Shown in pieces: positions 3,971 to 42,601 of a stretch of DNA of 45,525 bases (within the stretch, counting starts at the first letter, position 1; each line of letters opens with the position of its first letter). Source of the stretch: Oscillospiraceae bacterium (GTDB taxonomy: Bacteria > Bacillota > Clostridia > Oscillospirales > Butyricicoccaceae); assembly GCA_015068445.1 (NCBI GenBank), contig SVKN01000010.1:1-45525 (forward strand), given 5' to 3'. The notes beneath the pieces were generated by a model. It saw only the letters and a program-made list of their open reading frames with translations, searched no databases and had not been told where the DNA came from. A program made the translations under genes and the position numbers.

Positions 3971-4014
3971 CCTGTCCTCCTCTTCGCAGATGCATCGCAT
4001 CTGCTGTCTGATCG

Positions 4015-4168
4015 TTTTTTGGGCGGACATGTGCCGACCGAAAAACACCTTTCGGTCCGCAAACGTGCGCGCATCGCGCGTGCGCTGCAGCGGACCGACC
4101 CGAGCGGGCAGACGCACACCTCTGCCCGCGAGCCCTTCCTATGGTGAAAAACAGCAGATTTTCACCAT
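4015..4168. repeat. Structured intergenic repeat, family B copy 1
   Basis: Fills most of the 214-bp gap between queH and the DUF1846 gene. Elements in order: a stem with an ACATGT centre at 4015-4045; an 8-bp stem CGGTCCGC (4053-4060) / GCGGACCG (4090-4097) enclosing a GC-rich inner hairpin; a 9-bp stem GCGGGCAGA (4104-4112) / TCTGCCCGC (4121-4129); and an ATGGTGAAAA/TTTTCACCAT hairpin at 4141-4168. The same order recurs at 24065-24229 with compensating changes in two stems. Confidence 0.75.
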
Positions 4169-11249: not shown

Positions 11250-12092
11250 TTATTCCACAGCCGTCAGCTTGTAGATCTTCCTGCCGCCGCTGCGGACCTT
11301 CTCGGCGACGCCCATGCTGATCATGTGCTCTGCCTCGCTTTTGGTGAACAGGCCGGGCAGACCGTAGACCTGAACGTCGGCGGGCTCGCTCTTCGCGGCG
11401 GCCGCCGCAGTCTTCGCGCCCGACGGCTTCGCGGTCTTCGCCGCCTGTCTGGACGCCGTCGCCGCGGCCTTCTGCTCCCGCAGGGCCTGCTGGCGCTCGA
11501 ACTGGCTGTCTTTCACCTGATCGCGCTGCTGCTTATAGGCCTGCTCGCTCTCGTAGCGCTCGTCCTTCAGCGCGTCGCGGCCGCGCTGGTACTCCAGCTG
11601 CTCGGCCTTCAGGGCGCGGTCGAGCTCGTCGAGTTCCCGCTGATAGGACGTCTGCTCCGCCTTCCTCTCAGCCTCCCGCTCGTCGGACCAGCGGCTATAG
11701 GACGCCTTGTCGAGATCGTTCAGCGAGTCCAGCAGGTCCAGATCGCTTTCATACTCGTCCCGATAGACCTCATAGGCCAGCTTGTACAGCTCCGGGATCT
11801 TGTCCGCCTGCTTCGAGGCGTAATAGCTGCCCGCCTGCTGCGCCGCCGTGACGGCGTAGGACGAGGCTCGCCCGCCGGTGTTCTGGGCGGCCAGCCCGAC
11901 GGCGTCCTCGGCGGCGCGGCGGCCCTCCCGCTGATACGCCTCCGCGTAGGCCTGATACAGCGGGTCGGACGCGTAATCGTAAGAGAACCGCTCCCGCTGG
12001 GTCAGCTTGTCCACCACGCGGTCGATGCGGTCCTGATACGGGCTTTCATAGACGGCCTGCAGGCCGTCCTCCTCCATTCGTTTGATCGCCAT
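11250..12092 (-). CDS. Prophage coiled-coil protein with C-terminal winged-helix-like end
   Basis: A 280-residue protein. The first third (YDYASDPLYQAYAEAYQREG, then GGRASSYAVTAAQQAGSYYA and KIPELYKLAYEVY) is a pattern I know from uncharacterised Firmicute phage proteins. The middle (about 130-220) is a highly charged predicted coiled coil rich in E, R, Q and K. An Ala/Lys-rich linker leads to a compact end (GLPGLFTKSEAEHMISMGVAEKV), perhaps a small helical domain. Function unknown; a virion-internal or ejection protein is possible. The ATG at 12092 follows AAAGGAGGATCC. Last gene of the cassette. Confidence 0.75.
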   Translation of the reverse strand: MAIKRMEEDGLQAVYESPYQDRIDRVVDKLTQRERFSYDYASDPLYQAYAEAYQREGRRAAEDAVGLAAQNTGGRASSYAVTAAQQAGSYYASKQADKIPELYKLAYEVYRDEYESDLDLLDSLNDLDKASYSRWSDEREAERKAEQTSYQRELDELDRALKAEQLEYQRGRDALKDERYESEQAYKQQRDQVKDSQFERQQALREQKAAATASRQAAKTAKPSGAKTAAAAAKSEPADVQVYGLPGLFTKSEAEHMISMGVAEKVRSGGRKIYKLTAVE

Positions 12093-12111
12093 GGATCCTC
12101 CTTTCCGGCCG

Positions 12112-12489
12112 TCAGTCCCAACGGCCGCAGTCGATGTTGATCTGCGCCTCGCCGCCCACGGTGACGCGCCCCTGCCCGTCCAGCCAGAGGGCGGGGCCGC
12201 CGCCCTTTCCGGCCAGCAGCATCCGGAACGCGCCGCCGCGGCTGCCAAGCTCCACCCGCTGGCCGTCCTCGCCGGTCAGCAGCAGCGCCTCGTCGGTGAT
12301 GCGCATACTTCCGCCCGCGGACGCGATGGCCGTCTGAGCGGGGTCGAGGCTCGTGACGTTGGCGCTGTCCAGGTTGCTGAGGGTGTATTCCAGCTGCTCC
12401 TGCATGGCGCGGAGGTGGTTCTCCACAAGGCTCAGGCTCCCGCGCAGGTCGCCGTAATCCAGCGGCCGAAGATCGTTCGCAAAGATCAA
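12112..12489 (-). CDS. Phage protein of unknown function, TTG start
   Basis: About 125 residues. The likely start is TTG at 12489, overlapping the TGA of the upstream gene (TTGA), with GAGGTGG just upstream. The N-terminal half is helical (SLVENHLRAMQEQLEYTLSNLDS); the rest looks like beta strands ending in GQGRVTVGGEAQINID. It may be a neck or fibre-attachment protein given its place after the propeller-like gene, but I do not recognise the family. Confidence 0.6.
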   Translation of the reverse strand: MIFANDLRPLDYGDLRGSLSLVENHLRAMQEQLEYTLSNLDSANVTSLDPAQTAIASAGGSMRITDEALLLTGEDGQRVELGSRGGAFRMLLAGKGGGPALWLDGQGRVTVGGEAQINIDCGRWD

Positions 12490-13982
12490 GGCGCCACCTC
12501 GCTCCCCATGCGGAACAGCCGCTCGATGCTCCGGACGGCGCACCGTCCCTCACCGCGCAGGCGCAGCTCCAGTGTGTCTTCCCGGTTGGGCGGCAGGGAG
12601 ACGGGGCGCACGCCGTGACTTCCGCCGTCGAACATGGCCGCCTGACGCCAGGGCTCGCCCCGCAGGCGGATATCGACAGCCATCCACGCGCCGGGCTCCG
12701 GCGTCACGTCCAGCACCAGCGCCGAGCCCTCCCTGTACCGGGACGGGCCGTCCCGGAAGGGCCGGAACAGCGCGTGCCAATGCTCCTTGCCCGCTCCGCC
12801 CTCCGGGCTCAGCAGACGGCCGTCCTCCGTCATCAGCAGCAGCTCGCCGCCGCGCCTCTCTGCGAAACGCACGCGCTCGCGGCCCCAGGGCAGGAACCGC
12901 CTGCGCAGCAGGTCGTACTCCAGCACCCGCTCCGGCAGGCAGAGGTAATACTTCCCCCGCCGCACGCCGCCGCAGGCGGCCTCCGCCTCGATATGCCCCA
13001 GCACCCGGGACAGCAGCTGCGGCACGCCGCCGGAATAGACGTAAAGGCCCTCGAGGCCCAGGTAATACAGATCCTCGTTCTCGCTGACGAGGGTCTTTCC
13101 GCACCCGCGGCGCACGCCGGGGATGCGCACGGTCATCAGCTGGAAGTTGGCCGGGCGGGAGCCGTAGAGCTTGCAGGCCGACGTCTCCCGGAAGAACACC
13201 AGATGGGACCCGTAGGGCGCGCAGGCCGTGAAGCCGCCCTGCCCCGTGGAGACGGCGTAGGCGTCCGTGGACAGGCCGTCGTAGACGAAGAAGTTCCGCG
13301 CGTCGCCCAGCCTGCTGCCGTAGATCGTGTCGCCGCAGACGCCCCACAGCCGGTTGCCCGCGGCGCAGAGGACCTCCAGGTCCGGCACGCGCCGCTTCAC
13401 GGTGACGTTCGTCTCCGCGCCCGGCGTGAATACGTTGGCGTCGAAGAGCAGCTCGCTGCCCTCGACGCCCCGGACGATCAGCGTCTGCTCGTTCTCCGGA
13501 TGCTCCCCGCAGCCGGAGATCGTCACGCCGTCGCCCTTTTCAAAGGGCCACGCGTCGCCTTCGGCCGTGATGGTATGGTCGGAAAAGACGGCGGAAGCCG
13601 CCGTCAGGGACGTCTCCATGGGGCCGAAGGTCCGGCTCTCCAGATCGATCCACACCTTGTCGGGGAAGATTACGGCCACGCTGCCCAGCACGGCCGCGCG
13701 CTTCTCCCCCTCCGTCACGCCGCACAGCGTCTCGCCCTCCAGCGTGACATCCCCGCCGGCGATCAGCAACAGGCCGTATTCGGTGTCCAGCAGCGCCTGC
13801 GGCGACTGATAAACGCCCAGCTCCCGCGGCACGCATCGCTGGGCGATCCCGTCGCCCTCGCCCGTCAGACCCGCGCCGTCGGCCAAATCGCCGTTGCGGT
13901 AGTCCTCCGTCAGGCAGAGGCCGCCCAGCACCCGGGTGACGGCGGAATACCTGCCGCGGGTGCGCAGATACGGCAGCCTCAT
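12486..13982 (-). CDS. Propeller-like phage neck/tail-knob protein
   Basis: A 498-residue protein dominated by short beta strands, with the segment YGSRLGDARNFFVYDGLSTDAY followed by FRETSACKLYGSRP. This resembles short-tail phage proteins of the P22 gp10 (packaged-DNA stabilisation) kind and other propeller-like tail-tip proteins; the match is by pattern, so it is tentative. It directly follows the connector gene with an ATGA overlap, as expected for a tail-knob or plug protein that closes the portal channel. Confidence 0.6.
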   Translation of the reverse strand: MRLPYLRTRGRYSAVTRVLGGLCLTEDYRNGDLADGAGLTGEGDGIAQRCVPRELGVYQSPQALLDTEYGLLLIAGGDVTLEGETLCGVTEGEKRAAVLGSVAVIFPDKVWIDLESRTFGPMETSLTAASAVFSDHTITAEGDAWPFEKGDGVTISGCGEHPENEQTLIVRGVEGSELLFDANVFTPGAETNVTVKRRVPDLEVLCAAGNRLWGVCGDTIYGSRLGDARNFFVYDGLSTDAYAVSTGQGGFTACAPYGSHLVFFRETSACKLYGSRPANFQLMTVRIPGVRRGCGKTLVSENEDLYYLGLEGLYVYSGGVPQLLSRVLGHIEAEAACGGVRRGKYYLCLPERVLEYDLLRRRFLPWGRERVRFAERRGGELLLMTEDGRLLSPEGGAGKEHWHALFRPFRDGPSRYREGSALVLDVTPEPGAWMAVDIRLRGEPWRQAAMFDGGSHGVRPVSLPPNREDTLELRLRGEGRCAVRSIERLFRMGSEVAP

Positions 13983-14341
13983 ACGCGTCTCCTCCACACG
14001 CCCCGGGCCTGCTTCGGCGCGGGGGCCTTGTCCCGGAGGCACTGCTTCTTGTAATCGTCGATCAGCGCGTTGAGGATCGATGCCATGTTGTTCCAGTTGT
14101 CGTACTCCCGCAGCGCCAGATCGATCCGGGCGCACAGCCACAGGACGTAGACGTCCTCATAGCCGCCCTGCGCCGCCAGCGTGACGCCGCCGTCCTCGGG
14201 CCAGCGGAGGGAGCGGGCCTCCCGGCCCAGCTCGCGCTCCAGACGGTCCTCCAGCTCGATGACCCAGCGGGCCTTCTCGCCGTCGCCCAGCAGATTGGGC
14301 CGCAGCGCGTCGGCCCTGGCGATGGCCTGATCGATCGTCAT
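13979..14341 (-). CDS. Putative head-tail connector (adaptor) protein
   Basis: A 120-residue helical protein (MTIDQAIARADALRPN, ERELGREARSLRW, YEDVYVLWLCARIDLALREYDNWNNMASILNALIDDY). The length, the acidic DxYVLWLCAxIDLA core and the NNMASxLNAL helix match the small adaptor that docks under the portal in Firmicute phages. It sits in an ATGA chain between the holin-like gene and the propeller gene. Confidence 0.7.
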   Translation of the reverse strand: MTIDQAIARADALRPNLLGDGEKARWVIELEDRLERELGREARSLRWPEDGGVTLAAQGGYEDVYVLWLCARIDLALREYDNWNNMASILNALIDDYKKQCLRDKAPAPKQARGVWRRRV

Positions 14342-14559
14342 TTGTCCGCCTCCTCCAGCTCGCGCACGCGGTGGCTGACGGACTTGAGCTGCTCCTCCAG
14401 CACGGGCATGCGCCGGGCGAAATTGTTATGCTCGCGCACCTCCCGGGTCAGCTCGTCCAGCCGCGTCTCGGTGACGGCGGCGGCGCGGCTGTTGGCCAGC
14501 AGGACCCCCAGCAGCGTCAGCCCGCTGGAGATCAGCGCCGTGAGGATGCTCTCGCTCAT
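14338..14559 (-). CDS. Small holin-like membrane protein
   Basis: 73 residues: one hydrophobic segment at the N terminus (about residues 4-22, ILTALISSGLTLLGVLLA) followed by a charged coiled coil (about 33-72). This XhlA/holin-like layout is common in Clostridia phages. A membrane role in lysis is possible, but no endolysin gene is nearby. The start has an upstream GGAGGACGC and overlaps the preceding stop (ATGA). Confidence 0.65.
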   Translation of the reverse strand: MSESILTALISSGLTLLGVLLANSRAAAVTETRLDELTREVREHNNFARRMPVLEEQLKSVSHRVRELEEADK

Positions 14560-14981
14560 GCGTCCTCCCCGCTCTCCCAGCCGTAGACGCCGGGCTCCCA
14601 GACATTGCCGCCGCAGACGGAGACCCACACGCGTCCCAGATGGGACACGCGGTCGCCCTGCTCATAGGCGTCGGACGCGCCCAGGGGCTGGGTCCACAGG
14701 GGCAGCTCGCCGTCCATGCCCACGCGCTTGAACAGCGACGGGGCGTTCTCCGGCTCCCAGCCGGCCTGGGACGTGTGGTCCTGCAGGACGCGCCAGAGCC
14801 TGGGCTCCCCGTTTTCATCCAGGCCGCAGCGGACGACGGCGCCCGCGCGATAGGCCGTTTTATCGCGCCACTGCGGATAGAGCGCGGCCACCTCCAGCAT
14901 GACGCTCTCGTCGCTGAGCGTCCCGCACCACAGCTGCACGGCGCGGCGCAGCGCGCGCGCCTTCGTGATCCTGTCGTTCAT
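14556..14981 (-). CDS. Phage protein with C-terminal carbohydrate-binding-like module
   Basis: 141 residues. The end (YEQGDRVSHLGRVWVSVCGG, then NVWEPGVYGWE) has the spaced aromatic residues of the CBM5/12 chitin-binding fold often attached to phage tail proteins. The middle repeats the theme (AYRAGAVVRCG, WEPENAPSLF). It probably sits on the particle surface and binds glycans of the cell wall or mucus. Confidence 0.7.
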   Translation of the reverse strand: MNDRITKARALRRAVQLWCGTLSDESVMLEVAALYPQWRDKTAYRAGAVVRCGLDENGEPRLWRVLQDHTSQAGWEPENAPSLFKRVGMDGELPLWTQPLGASDAYEQGDRVSHLGRVWVSVCGGNVWEPGVYGWESGEDA

Positions 14982-14982
14982 G

Positions 14983-15366
14983 CTACTCCTCCTCTCCCAG
15001 CAGCGCGTCCAGCACGCTGACGTTCTCGGCGTTCGTCCCGGCGGCGATGGCCTCCAGCGCGGCGGTCTGGCGCTCCTGCAGGCTCGCGCCCGCAGGCTCG
15101 TTCAGCTGCTTCTCGAACGATTCGATGACGTCCAGCACGTCGCGGTCGGTCTCGCAGGCGCTGAAGTCCGCGCCCATGTCCGCGTAGGTGTCGCGCATGC
15201 GGCCCAGCGTGCCGAAAAACGCGCCGTTGATCTCGCCCGCGGCGCAGACGACGGTGATGCTGTCCAGCCCCGCGGCCGGATAGCGGGCGATCCACTGCTC
15301 CGCCGTGAGCACCTCGCCCACGGGCGTCAGCACGGGATCGCGCTTGTTCCAAATCGCATATCTCAT
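14983..15366 (-). CDS. Conserved small phage protein next to the tail fibre
   Basis: 127 residues beginning MRYAIWNKRDPVLTPVGEVLT, with a central TVVCAAGEINGAFFGTL and the acidic helix DVLDVIESFEKQLN. I recognise the pattern as recurrent in Firmicute phages without a known role. It begins 11 nt after the kelch-like fibre gene, the usual position of a fibre-assembly chaperone, but this is only context. Confidence 0.6.
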   Translation of the reverse strand: MRYAIWNKRDPVLTPVGEVLTAEQWIARYPAAGLDSITVVCAAGEINGAFFGTLGRMRDTYADMGADFSACETDRDVLDVIESFEKQLNEPAGASLQERQTAALEAIAAGTNAENVSVLDALLGEEE

Positions 15367-15377
15367 GGTCTCACTCC

Positions 15378-16508
15378 TCAGATGATGGTATAGATGTCGG
15401 TGGCGGCGGAGGCGCTGCGGGAGGCGAAGCCCGCTTCCTCGGCGGTGGAGCCGCCCAGAAAGGCCAGCACGGGCCCGGCGGCCGCGGCGCTGAGGCCTTG
15501 GCGGCCGAACTGCATGGGCGTGTTGGGCAGGATGGTCAGGTCGTTGTCGCAGCAGGCCACCACGGCCGACGGGCCGTCCTCTCCCAGACCGCCGCCGAAG
15601 ACGGCCCAGTTGCCCAGCCGACCGCCCGCGGCGTCCATCACGCCGAAGCCGAGCTCCACCGCGGCCAGCCGTGTCAGCGATTCCGTGAACGCCTCCAGCT
15701 TGCGGCAGAGCGTGCCGCTGATGATCCCGCCGCCGAACAGCGCGATGCGCCCGGCCGACGCCCCGGTCAGACGGCCGCGGGCGATGGTCAGTCGGCCGCC
15801 CGTCAGGCGCGTCATGGACGAATCGTAGCCGTCCACATAATCGGAGCCCGTGCCGCCGGCGAACAGGACGCGCCGGCCCGCCGCCGCGGCGGCGGGATCG
15901 GTGACGGCGGCGGACAGATCGTCGGGGGCGTGGCGGGTCAGGGACGTGTCGTAGGCGTCCACGACGGCCGTCTCATTCGTGCTGTTGTCGGCGCCGCCGC
16001 CGAAATAGGCGACGGTGCTGAGGCTCCCGGCGGCCAGATCGTCCCTGGCGATGCGGAGGGCGGGGCCGTCGGTGCGCGTCTGGGACGCGTCATAGACGTC
16101 CACCGCGCTCTGGTTGGCGCCGCTCGTCGTCTCGCCGCCGGCGAATAGTGCCTTGCCGCCCGCCTCCGCGGCCGCCAGACCGCTGCGCGGGACGGACAGG
16201 CTCGTCCCGTCGGTGAGCGTCAGCGTCGGGCTCAGCTGCTCCACCCAGGCGACGGTCTCGTCGTTGACGCGCCCGCCGCCGTAGAGGATCTGTTCTCCCG
16301 CCGTCGCCGCCGCGCCGTCGGTGCGGGCGTGGCGCAGCGTCGGGCCGGGACCGTAATACTGCACGCCGCGCTGATTCGTCCAGAAGGGCCGGGCCACGCC
16401 GCCCACGCCCACGTAGCCCTCCGTGACGGTCTTCGCCCGGCCGCCCACGCCCACATACATGTTGGATACGCGGGAGGCGAGGCCGTTTCGGCCGAGATAG
16501 ATACTCAT
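15378..16508 (-). CDS. Kelch-like repeat tail fibre or receptor-binding protein
   Basis: A 376-residue protein built from about seven repeats of roughly 45-50 residues, each with a glycine-rich strand (LFAGG, YFGGG, LFGGG, VFGGG), a VDVYD/VDAYD-like strand and a TRTDGPAL/LTRL strand. The pattern fits a kelch-type beta propeller. A short N-terminal segment with two VGVGG motifs may attach it to the particle. Placed between a fibre gene and a chaperone-like gene, it is a good candidate for the adhesin. Confidence 0.75.
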   Translation of the reverse strand: MSIYLGRNGLASRVSNMYVGVGGRAKTVTEGYVGVGGVARPFWTNQRGVQYYGPGPTLRHARTDGAAATAGEQILYGGGRVNDETVAWVEQLSPTLTLTDGTSLSVPRSGLAAAEAGGKALFAGGETTSGANQSAVDVYDASQTRTDGPALRIARDDLAAGSLSTVAYFGGGADNSTNETAVVDAYDTSLTRHAPDDLSAAVTDPAAAAAGRRVLFAGGTGSDYVDGYDSSMTRLTGGRLTIARGRLTGASAGRIALFGGGIISGTLCRKLEAFTESLTRLAAVELGFGVMDAAGGRLGNWAVFGGGLGEDGPSAVVACCDNDLTILPNTPMQFGRQGLSAAAAGPVLAFLGGSTAEEAGFASRSASAATDIYTII

Positions 16509-16511
16509 GGC

Positions 16512-17492
16512 CTACTCCTCATAGACCAGATAGATCGTCCCCGTGGGCAGGGACGTCTCTCCGGCCGTCATGCGGGCCGTGCCCGCGTAAATGTTGCGCA
16601 CCATGGCGGACGAAAGCGTCTCCTGAGCCGACGCGTTGGCTTGCACGGCCCCGGCCAGCGTGCCCGCCGTCACCTGCTGGGCCCCGTGGGTATGGGTCAG
16701 GGGCGCCTTGCCGGAGATGGCCGCCCGGGCGGCGGCGCTGAGGGGCTTGTCCTCGTCGGAGGTGTTGTCCACGCTGCCGAGGCCCACCTGCGCCTTCGTC
16801 ACCTGATGGGGGTTGCTGCGGTTGGCGATATGGGCGTCGGGGACGGCCCCGCCGCCACCGCCGCCGGACTGCTGGGCCAGCTGGGCGTAATATTTGGCGT
16901 TGTTCGTGTCCTCATCGGCGCGCAGGCCCGTGCCGCCCACGGCCCAGCTGCGGCTGAGCTGAGAGCCCGTCAGCGCCTGGATGGCGCAGGCGGCCGCCGT
17001 TTCGGCGGAGTCGCGGGCGCTGTCGGCGGAGTCGGACGCGGACCGGGCGCTCTCGTCCACGCGGTCCAGGATCTGGTCGATCTCGCGCTGCAGCTGCAGC
17101 GCCTGGGACTGGGTGGGCTCGGCGGCGCTGTCGCACGCGCCGGGACGGACCTCCAGCCGCTCGCTGACGGACAGCGCCACGACGCTCTGCCCGTCCTGCT
17201 CCGTATAGCCCTCCACGGTGAAGGAGCACCAGCCCACGCGGCTCAGCGGCTCAGGCGGGATCGTCACGGTGTAGTCCAGCAGACTCTCCCCGGTGCGCTC
17301 GTCCGCCGTCAGCAGCACGGCCACGGGGTCGAGGCCGCGGCTGTCGCGCCAGACAATGCGCTTGCCGTAATCCGCCCACGTCTCATCGAAGATCAGGCGC
17401 AGGGACGTGACGTTGCCCTCGCCCTGCACGCCGCCGTATTTCGAGCTGAGGCGGACGAACTGGCCGTTCACCTCGGCTTTGATCTGTCTCAC
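16512..17492 (-). CDS. Phage tail fibre / baseplate-upper-like protein
   Basis: 326 residues, GTG start. The N-terminal 120 residues (RLSSKYGGVQGEGNVTSLRLIF, then WCSFTVEGYTEQDGQSVVAL) resemble BppU-type baseplate attachment domains. A helical stalk follows (REIDQILDRVDESARSASDSA). The fibre motif NPHQVTKAQVGLGSVDNTSD, a hallmark of phage fibres, is at about 225-245, and THTHG near 265. Probably the structural fibre that carries the kelch protein encoded next. Confidence 0.8.
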   Translation of the reverse strand: MRQIKAEVNGQFVRLSSKYGGVQGEGNVTSLRLIFDETWADYGKRIVWRDSRGLDPVAVLLTADERTGESLLDYTVTIPPEPLSRVGWCSFTVEGYTEQDGQSVVALSVSERLEVRPGACDSAAEPTQSQALQLQREIDQILDRVDESARSASDSADSARDSAETAAACAIQALTGSQLSRSWAVGGTGLRADEDTNNAKYYAQLAQQSGGGGGGAVPDAHIANRSNPHQVTKAQVGLGSVDNTSDEDKPLSAAARAAISGKAPLTHTHGAQQVTAGTLAGAVQANASAQETLSSAMVRNIYAGTARMTAGETSLPTGTIYLVYEE

Positions 17493-17493
17493 G

Positions 17494-17751
17494 TTATTCC
17501 TCCTTCATCAGGCCCGCCTGCTTCAGCGCGGCGATCAGACTGATGACCGCCGCGCGCACCGCCTCCGGGTCGGCCCCGGGGCCGGGAGCGGCCACGGCGT
17601 CGGCCGGGCGGCTCTCCCAGGCGATCAGGGCGTTCCCCGCGGCGGTGCCCATATACAGTTGGCGGGCGTCGGTACACCAGCCGGGCATGCGCTCCGGCAG
17701 CTCGGGCATGCTCGCCCTGACGCCGCCGTAAAGACGGATGCTGCCCGGCAT
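17494..17751 (-). CDS. Small head-fibre-like phage protein
   Basis: 85 residues. MPGSIRLYGGVRASMPELPERMPGWCTDARQLYMGTA resembles the N-terminal motif of phage head or tail fibre proteins that display a short beta element (the 'TDxxxLYxG' pattern). An Ala/Pro-rich linker and a helix end it. One base separates it from the genes on either side. Function inferred only from motif and position. Confidence 0.6.
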   Translation of the reverse strand: MPGSIRLYGGVRASMPELPERMPGWCTDARQLYMGTAAGNALIAWESRPADAVAAPGPGADPEAVRAAVISLIAALKQAGLMKEE

Positions 17752-17752
17752 G

Positions 17753-18010
17753 CTACATCTCCCGTCTCATGCGCTCGAAGTCGCGCTCGCCCGCTTCCAT
17801 CAGGCCCTGGGCCAGACGGTCCTGCAGGTCGGACTGCTCCAGCACGCGGGCGAACTTGCGCTTGATGCGCACGGGCTCGCCGCGTTTGATCAGGCAGCCC
17901 TCGCCGTTGACGGCCACGAAGACGTCACGGCTGTAGCGGCCGCCGTCCTTGAACAGGCGCACCTCCACGTATTCCTCGTTCCAGTCCTTGAGGCTCTTCA
18001 TCTCGCTCAT
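17753..18010 (-). CDS. Small conserved protein encoded after the capsid gene
   Basis: 85 residues with the motif DVFVAVNGEGCLIKRGEPVRIKRKFARVLEQS, which I know from small proteins next to Firmicute phage capsid genes. It could be a head-completion or decoration protein. The ATG overlaps the capsid stop by one base (TGATG), so translation is likely coupled. Confidence 0.65.
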   Translation of the reverse strand: MSEMKSLKDWNEEYVEVRLFKDGGRYSRDVFVAVNGEGCLIKRGEPVRIKRKFARVLEQSDLQDRLAQGLMEAGERDFERMRREM

Positions 18011-19218
18011 CAGTTCTCCTCCCCGTCAAAGCTGGAGCAGGTCTCGATGCGCACCATAAAGGGCTCCACGAGACGCTCCGCGGTCCTGGTGGCCTTCCAG
18101 CCGCAGCTGGCGCGCTGATCCAGCGGGTCCGCCGTGCCGGAGGAGCCCAGCTGCTTGACGATGTGTCTCAGGCCGCCGCCCTGGATCTCGGTGACGCCGT
18201 AGGCGTTCTCGCCCAGCACCAGCGTGGCGTAGACGGCGCGGTTGTCGCGGCCGCCCTCGCCGGGCCTGATCTCGTCGCCCGCCTCCAGCACGGTGATCTG
18301 GTCTACGGTCAGGCGCGCGGAGCCCACGCCGCCGTTGACGGTGTTGACGATGGTGCGGATCTGGCCGTTGATGTTGATCTTTCGGCCGATCAGCTTCTCG
18401 CCCTCGCTGACGGTGAGGCTCTCGTTGAGGGTGACGGCGGTGGAGCCGGTGCCGTTGGCCGTGCGGACGGTCAGCGTCTTGTTCTCCAGCAGGGGCCTGC
18501 CCTTGAAGATCTTCGCCTCGGTGGTCTCCACGAAGCGCACGCCCGCGATCCTGCCGATCTCGCCGGCGTACATATCCTCGGGGTCGCAGTAGGTCTTGAC
18601 GTTCTGCCAGGCGGGATCGTGCATCAGGTCGTAAGCCACGTCGGGATGGATGATGGCCACGTAGCTGTCGCCGATCTTCTCGGCGTTCTGGGTCTTGAGG
18701 TATCTGGCCGCCAGGCGGATGGCCTCCACGGTCATGTAGTGGTTGCCGCTCTCCTGACCGCCCACCAGCTGGTCGCGGGAGTTGACCTGACCCTCGGCGT
18801 ACTGGACGTTGGTGCCGCCGTTGAGCACCTCGCGGGTGATGGTGTCCAGCGTCGCTCCCGCCTGATTGCCCAGCAGCTTGGTGGCCTGCAGGACGTTGTT
18901 GTCGATGCTCGTCATCACCAGCATGTCGCTGAGCTCGATGTAGCGGCCGTACTGGCGCACCGTCGATTCAACGGTGGACACCTCCAGCTTCTGCCCGTCG
19001 GGAGTGACGCCCTCGGTCAGCGGGACCGTCGCCTTGGGCAGGGGGCTGTAGCGGCGGAACTGGATGGTCTTGCCGCCGTTTTTGGGGATGGGATGCTTCT
19101 GCCCGAACTGGTCGTGGACCAGCTTGGGCACGGCGTTGTCGATGAGGTAGTCGCTGTAGAACGTGACCATCTCATGGGACAGGCCGGTGTCAAGAGTGGT
19201 GTTGATCGATTCGCTCAT
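18010..19218 (-). CDS. Major capsid protein, N4-gp56 family
   Basis: 402 residues. The N-terminal part (YSDYLIDNAVPKLVHDQFGQ, KTIQFRRYSPLPKATVPLTEG, YGRYIELSDML) and the centre (IHPDVAYDLMHDP, then GEIGRIAGVRFVETTEAKIF) are characteristic of the N4-gp56-like HK97-fold capsid family. Length is usual for the family. The ATG at 19218 has AAGGAGAG upstream. It follows the scaffold gene after a 191-bp gap that holds structured element A1. Confidence 0.92.
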   Translation of the reverse strand: MSESINTTLDTGLSHEMVTFYSDYLIDNAVPKLVHDQFGQKHPIPKNGGKTIQFRRYSPLPKATVPLTEGVTPDGQKLEVSTVESTVRQYGRYIELSDMLVMTSIDNNVLQATKLLGNQAGATLDTITREVLNGGTNVQYAEGQVNSRDQLVGGQESGNHYMTVEAIRLAARYLKTQNAEKIGDSYVAIIHPDVAYDLMHDPAWQNVKTYCDPEDMYAGEIGRIAGVRFVETTEAKIFKGRPLLENKTLTVRTANGTGSTAVTLNESLTVSEGEKLIGRKININGQIRTIVNTVNGGVGSARLTVDQITVLEAGDEIRPGEGGRDNRAVYATLVLGENAYGVTEIQGGGLRHIVKQLGSSGTADPLDQRASCGWKATRTAERLVEPFMVRIETCSSFDGEEN

Positions 19219-19236
19219 GTGATCTCTCCTTTTCTG

Positions 19237-19409
19237 TTAAAGTCTGATCTCTTCGCCTGCCAGGACGCGCCTGACGATCTCGTCGCGGGCCCCACAGAAT
19301 CTCCGATCCTGCGGGGACCCCTCGGATTCAATAGATTTGCGGCAAATGAATTGCCGCAAATCGGACGCCGCACTTGCGGCGCGGCGCAGAAGCGCCGTTC
19401 GGCTGCCTC
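19237..19409 (-). repeat. Structured element A1 with recoded copy of the scaffold C-terminus
   Basis: The 122-nt core (19288-19409) lies right after the scaffold stop. In transcript order it holds hairpins CGGCGC-TTCT-GCGCCG, CGCCGC-AAGT-GCGGCG, an 11-bp stem ATTTGCGGCAA/TTGCCGCAAAT and a CCCCGCAG/CTGTGGGG stem. Then 19287-19237 re-encodes the scaffold's last 16 residues (RDEIVRRVLAGEEIRL) plus a stop, with nine third-position changes and TAA in place of TGA. A second copy of the core occurs at 41425-41545. Confidence 0.85.
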
Positions 19410-19796
19410 TCACAGCCTGATTTCCTCTCCCGCCAGGACGCGCCTGACAATCTCATCTCGGTCTTTCTTCGTCATGGCGTGGGTCCCGGACGGGTAGGCG
19501 GCGGTGCCGGCGGCCGCCACGGCGTTTTCCTTCGCGCGGGCGGCGTTCTGCGCCAGACGCTCGGCGGCCCTGCGCGCGGCCTCCTCCTCCAGATATGCCC
19601 GGATCTCGGGCAGGCACGCGACCTCCAGCGCCGAGGCGAAATCGACGCCGGCGCGCAGCAGCTCCTTCAGCGCCGGACGGCGCAGGCCCTCGGTGAACTG
19701 CAGGCCGGGATAGCGGCCCTCCAGCTCCTCCAGGCTGCCGCGCCACTGCTCCGCGCGGCCGTTCAGGGTCTCCTGATGTTCCTCTTCCTTACGCAA
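19410..19796 (-). CDS. Probable phage scaffolding protein
   Basis: About 128 residues between portal and capsid genes, the usual scaffold position. It is charged and helical (EEHQETLNGRAEQWRGSLEE, EEEAARRAAERLAQNAARAK), with a short basic C-terminal motif RDEIVRRVLAGEEIRL of the kind that binds coat protein. The likely start is TTG at 19796, with AAGGAGG upstream, overlapping the portal stop by 8 nt; an ATG at 19829 is possible but overlaps by 41 nt. Its last 16 codons are repeated with synonymous changes downstream of element A1. Confidence 0.7.
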   Translation of the reverse strand: MRKEEEHQETLNGRAEQWRGSLEELEGRYPGLQFTEGLRRPALKELLRAGVDFASALEVACLPEIRAYLEEEAARRAAERLAQNAARAKENAVAAAGTAAYPSGTHAMTKKDRDEIVRRVLAGEEIRL

Positions 19797-21330
19797 TGGT
19801 CTGCTCCTCCTTTTCCAAATGCTTTGCAAGATACGCTCTCACCGCTTCCTTTCCTTCAAAATCCATCAGCTCCAGCGCCCCCATGGCCTGCTCGGCCAGA
19901 TCGGGACGGAAGAAGCCGCGGTCATACAGCTCCTTGGCCAGCTCATTCTGGCTGACGCGGGCGAAGGGATTCTTCTTCTGCGCCGTCATGACGATATCGA
20001 AGTCGGGCCGGTGCGCCCCGCGGATGGCGCGGGAGGAATAGGTGACGAAGGCCGTCCCCTTCTCCCCCGTGATGCGGAAGCAGCGGCCCACGTCGTAGAA
20101 CTGACGGATCAGCTCCAGACACAGCGCCCCCAGCCTGCCGTAGGCGCGGTAGGAGGCGCGGATCATGTCGCGGCTCGTCTTGTTGCCCGCCTCCTGCAGC
20201 GCCGAGATCGCAGACGCCGCCGTGACGCCCGCGTTGGTGCTGCCCGCCGAAAAGTCGCGGTTGGAGGACGTCTCCTTCAGCTCGTCGATCTTCATCTGCT
20301 GCACGCGCAGATACGTCTCGCTGAGGGGGTAGGGCTGGATGGGCCGCACGCGCTCCTCGCTGATGGCGCCCTCCACGTGGACGATGGGGCGGTCCCAGTC
20401 CAGGAACTCCTCCTCGTTGATGCCCGCCGACCGCCCGGCGAAGTACCGGGGCCGTGAAGCCATCAGCGAGCACTCCATGATGTTCTTGCCCAGGCGGTCG
20501 ATGTACTCCTGGGGCGCCTTGGTCACGGCGATGTAGCCGAAGCCCACGGGCTCCCCGGCCACGGGGAACAGCGTGTCGAACACCACGGGATACAGCCCGT
20601 GGGCGTACCAGCCCGTGTCGCGGCAGCGCTCGTCCAGCTCGCTGGCGTACAGCACGTGCTCGCCCGCGAACTTGCACAGGTGCAGCAGGCCGTCCTTTTT
20701 GTAGTACCAGTCGATGACCGTCACGCGGTCCTGTCCGTCCGCGGTGCGGGTGATGACGTCGATGACGTCGCCCGTGCCCTTTTCCAGCTGAGGGTACTCC
20801 TTCTCCAGCGTCTCCCTGTCCCAGCGGTGCGCGATGAACAGGTCGCGGCTGAGCTGGATGTCCCGGACACCGGGCTCCCAGAAGATGTTCTGCAGGTCGA
20901 TGGGCGTCACGTCCACGTCGCCCGCGCCGTGCTCCAGCGCGGGGTTCCAGAACACGCCGTAGACCGCCGTGCCGTGCTTGAGCTTGTACCACCACTGGTC
21001 GGAATACGTCTGCTCGAAGCCGCAGCGGTCCAGCACGGCGGGGATGATGCGGCTCAGGGCCTCGGCGTCTTTGGCGTCGCCGGGCTCCCGGGGCAGCACC
21101 ACGGGCTCCGGGAAGTTGTCCATGGCGTCGGCATGCTTGTTGGCCAGGTTGTTGAACAGCCAGGCGGAGGTCGGCCCGGGGCGCTCGCCCTCGCCGCCGA
21201 TCAGCTCCCAGTGGCGCAGCTGGTACCAAAGCTCCTCCTCCCGCAGCCGCTTCTCCAGCGGCGCCTTCGCGCGCTTGTACTCGCGCAGCCGCCCGATCGC
21301 CTCCTCGAGCCGCTCCTTGGGGAATTGCAA
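19789..21330 (-). CDS. Phage portal protein
   Basis: About 513 residues. Typical portal features: an early helical clip (WYQLRHWELIGGEGERPGPTSAWLFNNLANKHADAMDNFPEP), a central DLQNIFWEPGVRDIQLSR strand region, and the late helical wing (SAGSTNAGVTAASAISALQEAGNKTSRDM). It forms the twelve-fold ring through which DNA enters the head. The Shine-Dalgarno site AAAGGAG favours TTG at 21330 (8-nt spacing); a GTG at 21339 would lie on top of it. The stop overlaps the scaffold start. Confidence 0.88.
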   Translation of the reverse strand: MQFPKERLEEAIGRLREYKRAKAPLEKRLREEELWYQLRHWELIGGEGERPGPTSAWLFNNLANKHADAMDNFPEPVVLPREPGDAKDAEALSRIIPAVLDRCGFEQTYSDQWWYKLKHGTAVYGVFWNPALEHGAGDVDVTPIDLQNIFWEPGVRDIQLSRDLFIAHRWDRETLEKEYPQLEKGTGDVIDVITRTADGQDRVTVIDWYYKKDGLLHLCKFAGEHVLYASELDERCRDTGWYAHGLYPVVFDTLFPVAGEPVGFGYIAVTKAPQEYIDRLGKNIMECSLMASRPRYFAGRSAGINEEEFLDWDRPIVHVEGAISEERVRPIQPYPLSETYLRVQQMKIDELKETSSNRDFSAGSTNAGVTAASAISALQEAGNKTSRDMIRASYRAYGRLGALCLELIRQFYDVGRCFRITGEKGTAFVTYSSRAIRGAHRPDFDIVMTAQKKNPFARVSQNELAKELYDRGFFRPDLAEQAMGALELMDFEGKEAVRAYLAKHLEKEEQTIA

Positions 21331-21381
21331 TATGCTCACTCCTTTACAGTTGACAGATAATGTGCCGCCTCCGGCGGCGCT

Positions 21382-22815
21382 CTACCACACGGTCCCGGCG
21401 TACTCGTCCAAAGGACCGGTCATGCGCCTGACGTCCCGCGCCCGGCGCTCCGGCGGGGAGATGGGGCGCTCCATGAGGACGTAGCGGCACTCGTCGTAGA
21501 TGTGGTCCTCGCCCTCGGTGTCGATGTCCTCCACGTTGGCGGCGTCATAGACGAGCTGGGGGACGGTGCGGATGAAGTGGACGCAGGTGCTGAACACATA
21601 CAGCATGGGCCTGCCCTCCTCGTCGAAAGCCAGCCTGTGATGCAGCTGCATCTTCCCCGCCAGGCGGTGGTTGTCGCCCTTGTCGAAATAAACGCCCCGC
21701 CGCTCCATCATGGCCGCCACGCTCTCGCCGCGGCTCTCGTCGAAGATCGACGGGTCCGCGATGCCGCGGATGGTCCGCCCCTCCAGATTGGGGTCGTCGC
21801 GCTCGATGTCGCGGATGGCGTCGGCGATCCGCGCCGGCTCCCAGCGCACGCCCTCGTTGGGCACGCCCGTGCAGCCGTACAGCTCCCGGATGCGGTAGAC
21901 GCGCCCGTCGCTGTCCACGGCGTACCACCCCACAGCAAAGGGCCGCGTGTAGCCGAAATCGAACCCGCGGTAGACGCTCCACTCCCGGGGCACGCGAAAG
22001 GGCGCGATGACGTGGGTGTTGACCCGCGTACGGTACCCCGCCGGATCGTTGCGCCACTCCAGAAAGACCTGCCCCGAAAAGGAGTCCCAGTCCCCGTACA
22101 GCAGCGCCTTCTTCTCCGCCTCCGGCAGCATGGCCAGCCGCCAGGCGTAGTCCGGGTCGTTGTCCATCAGGATCTTGTTGTCGAACACCGTGGACGGCAC
22201 GAAGATGCGGCCCTGCCGCTTTTTCTCCACGCCGCCCCCGGGGACGGCCACCTCCAGCTCCTGCCAGATGGTCGTCATGGCCGGGGCCGGGGTGATGAAC
22301 CGCTCCTTGACCCAGCCGTGGCCCCGCCCGCCGGGGTTGGCGCTGGCACGGATGTAGCACCGCGCCCCCGCGCCGCCCGGACGGCACCGGGAGAACATGT
22401 AGGCGTACTCCTCCCAGCTGAACTGGGTCAGCTCGTCGAAGGCGATGTAGTCGAAGCGCTTGCCCTGGTAGTTGATGCGGTCCGACGTGTACTGCATGGA
22501 GCCGAACTGGATCTTCGCCCCCGAGGGGAACTGCCAGAAGTGGCGGCTCTGGTTGTACCGCGCGCCGGGCGCGGCCGCGGGGTACAGCTCCATGGAGCGG
22601 TCCACCAGCTGGGACAGCTGGGGGTACGTCTTGCGCAGGATCAGGCCCCGGTACTGGGGCAGGTCCACCTGACGCAGCGCCTCGGCCAGCAGCGCGTCGC
22701 TCTTGCCGCCGCCCGCCGCGCCGCCGTACAGCGCCTCGAACTCAGGCCGCGCCATGAAATCGCGCTGCCGCGGCTGCGGAGACCAAAAGGGCTTGATTCG
22801 ATTGTTTTCCGCCAT
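21382..22815 (-). CDS. terL: Terminase large subunit
   Basis: A 477-residue packaging motor. ATPase half: Walker A GGAAGGGKSDALL near residues 31-43, Walker B FDYIAFDELTQF near 121-132, and the coupling motif SANPGG near 158. Nuclease half: RNase H-like acidic motifs in YRGFDFGYTRP, IADPSIFD and the late acidic helix EDIDTEGEDHIYDECRY. The start has GGAGGG 9 nt upstream. The portal follows after 42 nt containing a GCCGCC/GGCGGC hairpin. Confidence 0.95.
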   Translation of the reverse strand: MAENNRIKPFWSPQPRQRDFMARPEFEALYGGAAGGGKSDALLAEALRQVDLPQYRGLILRKTYPQLSQLVDRSMELYPAAAPGARYNQSRHFWQFPSGAKIQFGSMQYTSDRINYQGKRFDYIAFDELTQFSWEEYAYMFSRCRPGGAGARCYIRASANPGGRGHGWVKERFITPAPAMTTIWQELEVAVPGGGVEKKRQGRIFVPSTVFDNKILMDNDPDYAWRLAMLPEAEKKALLYGDWDSFSGQVFLEWRNDPAGYRTRVNTHVIAPFRVPREWSVYRGFDFGYTRPFAVGWYAVDSDGRVYRIRELYGCTGVPNEGVRWEPARIADAIRDIERDDPNLEGRTIRGIADPSIFDESRGESVAAMMERRGVYFDKGDNHRLAGKMQLHHRLAFDEEGRPMLYVFSTCVHFIRTVPQLVYDAANVEDIDTEGEDHIYDECRYVLMERPISPPERRARDVRRMTGPLDEYAGTVW

Positions 22816-23983: not shown

Positions 23984-24009
23984 AAAAAAGCACCCTCACG
24001 GGTGCTTTT
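23984..24009. terminator. Terminator hairpin, outer copy
   Basis: AAAAAAGCACCC-TCAC-GGGTGCTTTT. The 20-nt hairpin is identical to the one at 24235-24258, with repeat family B copy 2 between them. It may also stop the repressor transcript. Confidence 0.75.
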
Positions 24010-24064
24010 CAGTTTGTCAAAAAAGTCGATTTGTGCCGATCATGAGTATCACGCTCGCGCAGCG

Positions 24065-24229
24065 AGCGGTAATGAATCTGTGTTTCCGGCGGACATGTGC
24101 CGACGGAAACACACCTTCCGGTCTGCAAACGTGCGCCTGTTAAGGCGTGCGCTGCAGCAGACCGGCCCAAGCAGGCAGGCGCTCTTCTGCCTGCGGGCCC
24201 TTCTTTGTCGAAAAACCTGTTTTTCGACA
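24065..24229. repeat. Structured intergenic repeat, family B copy 2
   Basis: Same order of stems as at 4015-4168: an ACATGT-centred stem (24084-24110), CGGTCTGC (24119-24126) / GCAGACCG (24157-24164), an inner GCGCCT-GTTA-AGGCGT-like hairpin, GCAGGCAG (24171-24178) / CTGCCTGC (24187-24194), and a closing 10-bp hairpin TGTCGAAAAA/TTTTTCGACA (24206-24229). Two stems differ from copy 1 by paired, pairing-preserving substitutions. Confidence 0.75.
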
Positions 24230-24234
24230 GGTCC

Positions 24235-24258
24235 AAAAGCACCCTCACGGGTGCTTTT
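24235..24258 (-). terminator. Terminator of the XpaC-family gene, inner copy
   Basis: AAAAGCACCC-TCAC-GGGTGCTTTT hairpin 19 nt beyond the stop at 24278, flanked by A/T runs on both sides. Confidence 0.8.
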
Positions 24259-24277
24259 CTTTTGATTTCATTGATCG

Positions 24278-38991: not shown

Positions 38992-39035
38992 TTGACAATT
39001 GCGATTTGCCGACGATTCCCCGTTGCCCGCCGTGA

Positions 39036-39135
39036 CGGTGACGCGGGCAGCCCGGGGCAACGGAAACGCGGGCAGCCCGGGGCAACGGAAACGCGGGCAG
39101 GCCGCCGCAACGGAAACGTGTGCGTCCCGGGGCAA
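39036..39135. repeat. Four tandem 25-bp repeats
   Basis: Units at 39036, 39061, 39086 and 39111, each starting CGG..AC and ending in GGGCAA or CGCAA; units 1 and 2 differ only near the 5' end, while units 3 and 4 diverge. 25 is not a multiple of three, so this is a DNA-level repeat. The last unit runs straight into the repeat at 39134-39179. Confidence 0.85.
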
Positions 39136-41352: not shown

Positions 41353-41545
41353 TTAACCAAGGCGTTTGACCATATTCTCGTAGTTGGCACAGGACAGCAG
41401 CGCCGTGTCCTTCGTAATCTTGCCCGGCCCCGCAAAAACAGGTCTTTGCGGGGGCCCTTTAATCGAATAGATTTGCGGCAAATGAATTGCCGCAAATCGG
41501 ACGCCGGACCTCCGGCGCGGCGCAGAAGCGCCGTCAAAGAGGGCC
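41353..41545 (-). repeat. Structured element A2 with recoded copy of the PilT C-terminus
   Basis: The 121-nt core (41425-41545) follows the pilT stop directly. It has the same hairpin order as element A1: CGGCGC/GCGCCG, CGCCGG-AGGT-CCGGCG, the 11-bp ATTTGCGGCAA stem, and a GC-rich stem. Positions 41424-41353 then re-encode the last 23 residues of PilT plus TAA with six third-position changes and no amino-acid change. Forty-one consecutive bases (41466-41506) are identical to 19330-19370. Confidence 0.85.
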
Positions 41546-42601
41546 TTAACCGAGACGCTTGACCATATTCTCGTAGTTGGCACAGGACAGCAGCGCGGTA
41601 TCCTTCGTGATCTTGCCCTCTTTGTAGAGCTTCAGCAGGCTGCCGTCCATGGTGCACATGCCGTCGGCGGCGCCGGCCTGCATGGCGGACTCCAGCTGAT
41701 GGAGCTTATCCTCGCGGATCATGTTCTGGATGGCGGTGGTGGACTTCATGATCTCGAACACGGGGATCTGGCGGCCGTCCACGCCGGGGACCAGCTGCTG
41801 GCACACGACGCCCTTGAGGATCTGGGCCAGCTGGATCTTGATCTGCTTCTGCTGGTTGGCCGGGAAGACGTCGAGGATGCGGTTGATGGTGTTGGCCGCC
41901 GAGCTGGTGTGCAGCGTGCTCAGCAGCAGCACGCCGGTCTCCGCCGCCGTCATGGCCGAGGAGATCGTGTCGTAATCGCGCATCTCGCCCAGCAGGATGA
42001 CGTTGGGGCTCTCGCGCAGGGCGGAGCGCAAAGCGTCCAGATAGCCCGGGGTGTCGATGGAGATCTCGCGCTGGGTGACGATGGACTTGTTGTGGCGATG
42101 GATGTACTCGATGGGGTCCTCCATCGTGATGATATGGGCGTCGCGGGTGCGGTTGATGCGGTCGATCATGCAGGCCAGCGTCGTCGATTTGCCGGTGCCG
42201 GCGGCGCCGGTGATCAGCACGAGGCCCTTCTTGTTGTCGGCCAGGGACAGCACGCTTTCGGGGATGCCCAGCTCCGCGGGGTCGGGCAGGCCGAACTGGA
42301 TGACGCGGATGACCGCGGCCAGGGAGCCGCGCTGACGGAAGACGTTGACGCGGAAGCGGCCCAGACCGGACAGGGCGAAGCTGAAATCGTCGTCCACGCC
42401 CTCGTTGAGGTTGCGGCGGTCGCGCTTGCTGACGTCATAGATCTGGTTGACCAGCAGGTCGAGTATGTCGGGCATGAGCATCTCGCCGGGCATGCGCACG
42501 TGCTGGCCCTTCATCTTGAAGGTGACGGGCACGCCGGCGATGAGGAAGATATCGGCAGCGCCCTGCTCGATGGCCTGCTTCAGGATCTCCATGATTTCCA
42601 T
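41546..42601 (-). CDS. pilT: PilT-type twitching motility ATPase
   Basis: 351 residues. Hexameric ATPase that retracts type IV pili. Walker A ITGAAGTGKSTT near residues 129-140, Asp box (MEDPIEY) near 161, Walker B VILLGEMRD near 199, His box TLHTSSAANT near 229, and the PilT-like retraction motif AIQNMIRE near 288. No PilB extension ATPase gene is in the window. GGAG lies 10 nt before the ATG. Its C-terminal codons are repeated beyond element A2. Confidence 0.93.
   Translation of the reverse strand: MEIMEILKQAIEQGAADIFLIAGVPVTFKMKGQHVRMPGEMLMPDILDLLVNQIYDVSKRDRRNLNEGVDDDFSFALSGLGRFRVNVFRQRGSLAAVIRVIQFGLPDPAELGIPESVLSLADNKKGLVLITGAAGTGKSTTLACMIDRINRTRDAHIITMEDPIEYIHRHNKSIVTQREISIDTPGYLDALRSALRESPNVILLGEMRDYDTISSAMTAAETGVLLLSTLHTSSAANTINRILDVFPANQQKQIKIQLAQILKGVVCQQLVPGVDGRQIPVFEIMKSTTAIQNMIREDKLHQLESAMQAGAADGMCTMDGSLLKLYKEGKITKDTALLSCANYENMVKRLG

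Follow-up and report, generated by a model that had tools for sequence, protein, structure and literature searches.

We identified a short, non-coding, hairpin-rich element near the 3' end of pilT in a 45,525-nucleotide (nt) stretch of DNA from an Oscillospiraceae bacterium of the family Butyricicoccaceae (assembly GCA_015068445.1, contig SVKN01000010.1, positions 1 to 45,525; hereafter the window). With a probability of roughly 0.58, we read it as a mobile unit that consists of a recoded gene end with its stop codon, a guide-like stretch (X') and a hairpin core, and whose insertion site matches X'; our confidence in the full mechanism is moderate. Read in the sense of the gene, the layout is X, then Y(a) with its stop codon, Z, X' and hairpins 1 to 4, then Y(b) with its stop codon, where Y(a) is the gene end in current use, Y(b) is the copy stranded downstream, and the unit extends from the junction after X to the end of hairpin 4.

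The pilT gene (41546-42601; the parts of the pilT and phage copies given here all lie on the minus strand) encodes a T2SSE/PilT ATPase of 351 amino acids (PF00437, E = 1e-38), and its last 23 codons and stop codon are probably the recoded copy. This end, Y(a) (41546-41617), and its counterpart at 41353-41424 are identical at 66 of 72 positions and both translate to GKITKDTALLSCANYENMVKRLG followed by a stop; the six differences are in third codon positions and change no amino acid, as the original prediction had described. A repeat search of the window returned the pilT flank pair as 73 nt at 92% identity, with a core shared with 19314-19398. The inserted unit measures about 193 nt (41426-41618) and begins with the recoded pilT end. 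The 121 nt between the two copies, earlier treated as one core, do contain the core but are composite. Positions 41535-41544 (GCCCTCTTTG, X'), directly before hairpin 1, are the exact reverse complement of pilT 41615-41624 (CAAAGAGGGC, X), the gene sequence across the insertion point (c, between CAAAGA and GGGC); the conserved three-hairpin part covers only 41462-41534 (97.8 bits), and a fourth hairpin (41426-41456), recognised in the sequence, forms the right end of the unit and adjoins Y(b) (41353-41425). In the predicted DNA fold (z = -4.4), X paired with X' forms the first stem, in series with the hairpins.

Used as a query, the 121-nt pilT interval brought up about 20 more copies in G000, the genome of the window. 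With a covariance model (R1) built on hairpins 1-3, we found the family in 7 of 7 genomes examined from this genus of uncultured gut bacteria, with 67 copies in G001, 62 in G004, 33 in G002, 30 in G005, 23 in G000, 14 in G006, and 2 in G003. A few core copies occur beyond the genus, for example in G007. The element-bearing contigs belong to metagenome-assembled genomes (MAGs) of Clostridia, mostly of ruminant gut origin; all bacterial genomes used were MAGs, one per species, and the 148 copies analysed are phylogenetically non-independent. The unit is about 200 nt long and sits a few to about 28 codons ahead of the stop codon in unrelated, often essential genes. An adjacent duplication of Y, beginning right after hairpin 4, was present in 61 of the 148 core copies, and the start of Y(b) is nearly fixed relative to hairpin 3, usually about 33-44 nt past the core match. 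Since random flank pairings reached the cut-off of the flank-duplication score in about 1% of trials, the pilT pattern goes far beyond chance. The predicted fold of the gyrB copy had a z of -6.1, and no known RNA family matched the element at its gathering threshold.

The duplicated flank was the 3' end of a coding gene in 38 of 61 cases, and there the second copy keeps the reading frame as far as its stop codon. Targets assigned by eye from the translations include GyrB, NusA, DnaJ, RlmH, ProRS, MurE, ribosomal protein L23, RidA, and an ECF-type transporter; PilT and a phage head gene are further targets. A tRNA-Val gene was rebuilt likewise, with its terminator duplicated too (L116). These 38 coding cases, the tRNA-Val gene, and the empty sites described below bear out the original prediction of a small element inserted near gene 3' ends, with a complete C-terminus on both sides and no restriction to the phage. 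In four other copies of G000 (L003, L004, L015, and L019), the core lies in the opposite orientation at tRNA or transfer-messenger RNA terminators, and the 3' end of the RNA gene is mirrored in an extension of the terminator hairpin.

Over the 38 coding cases, adding up the counts for each locus and leaving out spurious frames, Y(a) and Y(b) differ at 119 codons synonymously and at 9 nonsynonymously, and the differences are clustered in blocks of neighbouring codons (p < 0.001). A freely drifting copy would give mostly nonsynonymous differences, so this count argues against free drift, which is rejected at p ~ 1e-36 against a 60% nonsynonymous expectation. The same count bears on the possibility that insertion locally copies a 30-90 nt target (Y), that snap-back synthesis yields the inverted copy of the cut region (X'), and that the Y copies then diverge in place. 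Identical copies with perfect or near-perfect X' (L009, L012, and L101) agree with such a process, as does the fit of X' to the local gene in every case. So do one copy that lies in reverse orientation at a gene start and has duplicated that start instead (L092) and another whose duplication extends over the 3' untranslated region and terminator (L282). However, a freed copy should drift in amino acids and gain insertions and deletions, whereas register is kept and changes are overwhelmingly synonymous; moreover, the differences are clustered, and at a locus with an empty allele (L439) it is the copy attached to the gene that has changed, whereas Y(b) is as in the empty allele. We therefore consider duplication at the target followed by divergence in place unlikely.

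Empty sites identify the native copy at several loci; they were seen in relatives of the phage, in pilT relatives, in gyrB and nusA orthologues, and in an alternative allele within one MAG. The last of these, L439 (G005:C281), is an empty allele of an amidohydrolase-like gene of G005, so this MAG holds an alternative strain allele. Against the filled allele (L428) it is identical at 205 of 206 nt upstream and 80 of 82 nt in Y(b), and 14 synonymous changes are confined to Y(a). At gyrB, the G005 orthologue agrees with Y(b) at 6 codons and with Y(a) at none. In total, five loci had Y(b) as the native copy and one (nusA) had Y(a), with two ties, and the codons divided 34 to 11 in favour of Y(b). 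At loci with an empty allele or a close relative for comparison, the stranded Y(b) is thus usually native and the gene-attached Y(a) recoded. The pilT relatives, at only 40-57% identity, are too distant to decide between the copies there, so it is by extension from the other loci that Y(a) of pilT is probably the carried, recoded copy and Y(b) the native one.

The phage copy in the window follows the same pattern. Its Y(a) (19407-19461) lies at the end of open reading frame 19410-19829, a phage gene that precedes the major capsid gene, hairpins 1-3 cover 19326-19398 (101.7 bits), hairpin 4, again from sequence, covers 19287-19320, and Y(b) (19234-19288), the native 3' end, lies beside the ribosome-binding site of the capsid gene. 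The two ends differ by nine synonymous codons and no nonsynonymous ones. Related phages (L301-L321) are without an insert at this site, and of the codons that differ, the closest of them, L301, shares 6 with Y(b) and 1 with Y(a). The IMG/VR contig IMGVR_UViG_3300021311_000133 is 100% identical to window positions 11250-22293 and contains the phage core copy, which is thus present base for base in a separate assembly. This bears on the suspicion that mixed strains in MAGs have produced the layout as an assembly artefact. That all bacterial genomes are MAGs and that many copies sit at contig ends would fit such an origin, but an identical layout at dozens of genes in seven genomes, together with the separately assembled phage copy, makes it very improbable.

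The X' stretch comprises about 10-18 nt directly before hairpin 1, and its reverse complement is the part of the gene that straddles the insertion point. Complementarity between X and X' exceeded the 99% null in 20 of 48 testable copies, where about 0.5 would be expected. Within groups of homologous targets the insertion point is mostly identical, and X' tracks the local X: at RidA (L021 and L282) the pairs are GGACGGTC/GACCGTCC in G000 and AAGGACGGCC/GGCCGTCCTT in G002, and the M20 peptidase site (L280, L281, L294, and L296; G002 and G006) behaves likewise. In the G002 paralogues L280 and L281, the units are 85-90% alike and the adjoining genes 58-82%, as expected if the unit moved. Neither the target-complementary X' nor the assignment of the native copy had been part of the original prediction. 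Long-term vertical inheritance of same-site insertions without conversion was rejected, as copies within a genome are more alike than copies between species. RNA splicing guided by X' was also rejected: at the would-be splice junction it is Y(a), and not the Y(b) side, that X' follows, and we recognised no catalytic core.

Alternatively, the duplication might form once, after which homologous recombination with other strains would swap one copy for a diverged allele and leave synonymous mosaics. The clustering of differences in blocks, a recoded block within Y(b) of nusA between identical flanks, and the greater likeness of whole units than of genes in the L280/L281 paralogues all speak for this. 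In L428 compared with L439, though, the divergent tract begins about 20 nt past the insertion point after 205/206 identity upstream, so that its left edge coincides with the unit, and recombination leaves X' unaccounted for; we regard it as quite unlikely.

Under the mobile-unit reading, the unit would carry the recoded end along, and insertion into a related allele would swap in the carried end for the severed one, so that no harm is done. X' may act as a guide by pairing with the target beside the hairpins, as the guide next to the left-end hairpin does in IS200/IS605, and insertion may proceed via hairpin-bearing single-stranded DNA. As long as Y(a) still equals Y(b), the junction of X and Y would be intact and could be hit again, giving tandem arrays, and recoding may stop repeat insertion. 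Tandem arrays were found in 4 of 7 undiverged and 3 of 31 diverged copies (p = 0.013); this excess fits re-insertion at an unrecoded site, but it also fits unequal crossing-over.

Several observations weigh against this reading. Copies with no detectable duplication make up more than half of the 148, including intergenic and tRNA-terminator copies. The original prediction had held that such copies would make the two window cases coincidental; many do exist, yet the duplications are too frequent and too precise for coincidence. X' was not found in more than half of the duplicated copies, and where Y(a) and Y(b) differ it matches Y(a) better (L118, L120, L154, and L161), so pairing with the native target would be imperfect. 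The nusA locus is reversed: there Y(a) is native-like, and the recoded block lies in Y(b), with identical sequence to either side. The model does not account for the way in which a unit takes on a new target, and the bacterial data come entirely from MAGs. Finally, a Y1/HUH transposase (PF01797) is absent from the ~98% complete genomes G001 and G006, which have 67 and 14 copies.

No enzyme that inserts the unit was found. A TnpA-REP/RAYT gene is present in G000, G002, G004, and G005 but absent from G001 and G006, so RAYT/HUH does not stand as proven machinery. The single RAYT-like HUH transposase gene of G000 (C95:13726-14214; L031:1333-1824; 163 amino acids) lies just downstream of a recF-like gene, and no core copy was found on its contig. 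No autonomous copy with a transposase between cores was seen among the open reading frames of contig C14. No RVT_1 match to a reverse transcriptase was found in four element-rich genomes (G001, G002, G004, and G005), and the one reverse transcriptase of G000 is not conserved in the genus, so it was rejected as machinery; this 402-amino-acid protein (L062:1300-2508; G000:C91) is without a close relative in the genus. The repeated gene 3' end, the hairpins, and the downstream near-copy recall the layout of diversity-generating retroelements (PMC3240598), with a variable and a template repeat on either side of the hairpins. Membership is refuted by the lack of a reverse transcriptase family match in the same four genomes, and the changes are synonymous and not limited to adenines, which leaves even a likeness of this kind extremely improbable.

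We also identified a second palindromic repeat family (GGCGGACATGTGCCGAC...) at window positions 4014-4070 and 24080-24136. The copy at 24080 shares the habit of the main family, with a terminator repeated on its two sides (23984-24015 and 24234-24265), and similar sequence occurs beside L017 and within L272. Separately, positions 39025-39124 hold a short tandem repeat of about four units of about 25 nt (GCCCGGGGCAACGGAAACGCGGGCA).

If the mobile-unit reading is true, it describes a strategy of mobile DNA that is, to our knowledge, undescribed in bacteria: harmless entry into essential genes by means of a recoded ending, where the choice of target apparently lies in a short stretch of complementarity next to the hairpins. 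The dozens of natural pairs of unit and target, together with the empty alleles, make the guide rules and the recoding directly testable, and if an enzyme reads X', the family would amount to a compact insertion system that is retargeted in nature. The data also call for caution: in these genomes the ends of genes are mosaic, and the DNA downstream of such genes holds coding sequence that looks conserved yet goes unused. More tentatively, and with the odds somewhat against it, the family could be a naturally occurring analogue of a recoded-rescue gene drive, in which a non-coding hairpin element of about 200 nt, with its own DNA guide of 10-18 nt and a synonymously rewritten gene end, would home into essential host and phage genes free of cost and without re-cutting itself.

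We know of no described bacterial element that inserts before gene ends with a recoded substitute end, and no bacterial equivalent was found in the open literature, with subscription papers outside our coverage. Integrases that use the 3' ends of genes or tRNAs as attachment (att) sites rebuild the target's 3' end with element-carried sequence; such integrative elements span kilobases, carry an integrase gene, and have one att site each. The likeness to att sites drawn in the original prediction stands only as an analogy, in that the target's 3' end is here too apparently rebuilt from element-carried sequence, but the unit has no integrase gene, and its flanks differ synonymously instead of sharing an identical att core. 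REP/BIME palindromic repeats with TnpA-REP (RAYT) are extragenic, GTAG-tagged, and 20-50 nt long (PMC8266576). Our family resembles them in being short, palindromic, and dispersed, with a RAYT gene in some of the genomes, whereas it has a three-hairpin core of about 73 nt, stems without GTAG, and insertions inside gene ends; REPs restore no gene ends, and RAYT is missing from two element-bearing genomes. In IS608, extended left-end pairing can direct insertion to sites of 12-17 nt (PMC5934647). As in IS200/IS605, where a guide 5' of a subterminal hairpin pairs with the target, X' lies 5' of hairpin 1 and complements X in 20 of 48 copies, a parallel drawn from sequence. However, the target of IS608 is a single fixed tetranucleotide, and the element brings along no end of a host gene, whereas each copy here has its own longer complement and the unit lacks a transposase gene; and IS200/IS605 insert without target duplication, whereas here a 30-90 nt target is found on both sides. 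There is a parallel in layout with the fungal mitochondrial mobile C-terminal/homing-endonuclease elements (Allomyces atp6; Glomus atp6, atp9, cox2, and nad3), in which the insert brings a diverged substitute C-terminus while the native one stays downstream and matches close relatives, as the carried copy does not (PMC3630166). A diverged, apparently carried C-terminus with the native one stranded downstream is what we found here, with the exception of nusA. The fungal elements, though, are about 1 kb long and encode a LAGLIDADG or GIY-YIG endonuclease, whereas the ~193-nt pilT unit consists of hairpins, X', and the pilT end, with no room for an endonuclease reading frame, and the family as a whole is ~200 nt, non-coding, and hairpin-rich, with a target-complementary X' and dozens of unrelated target genes in one genus.
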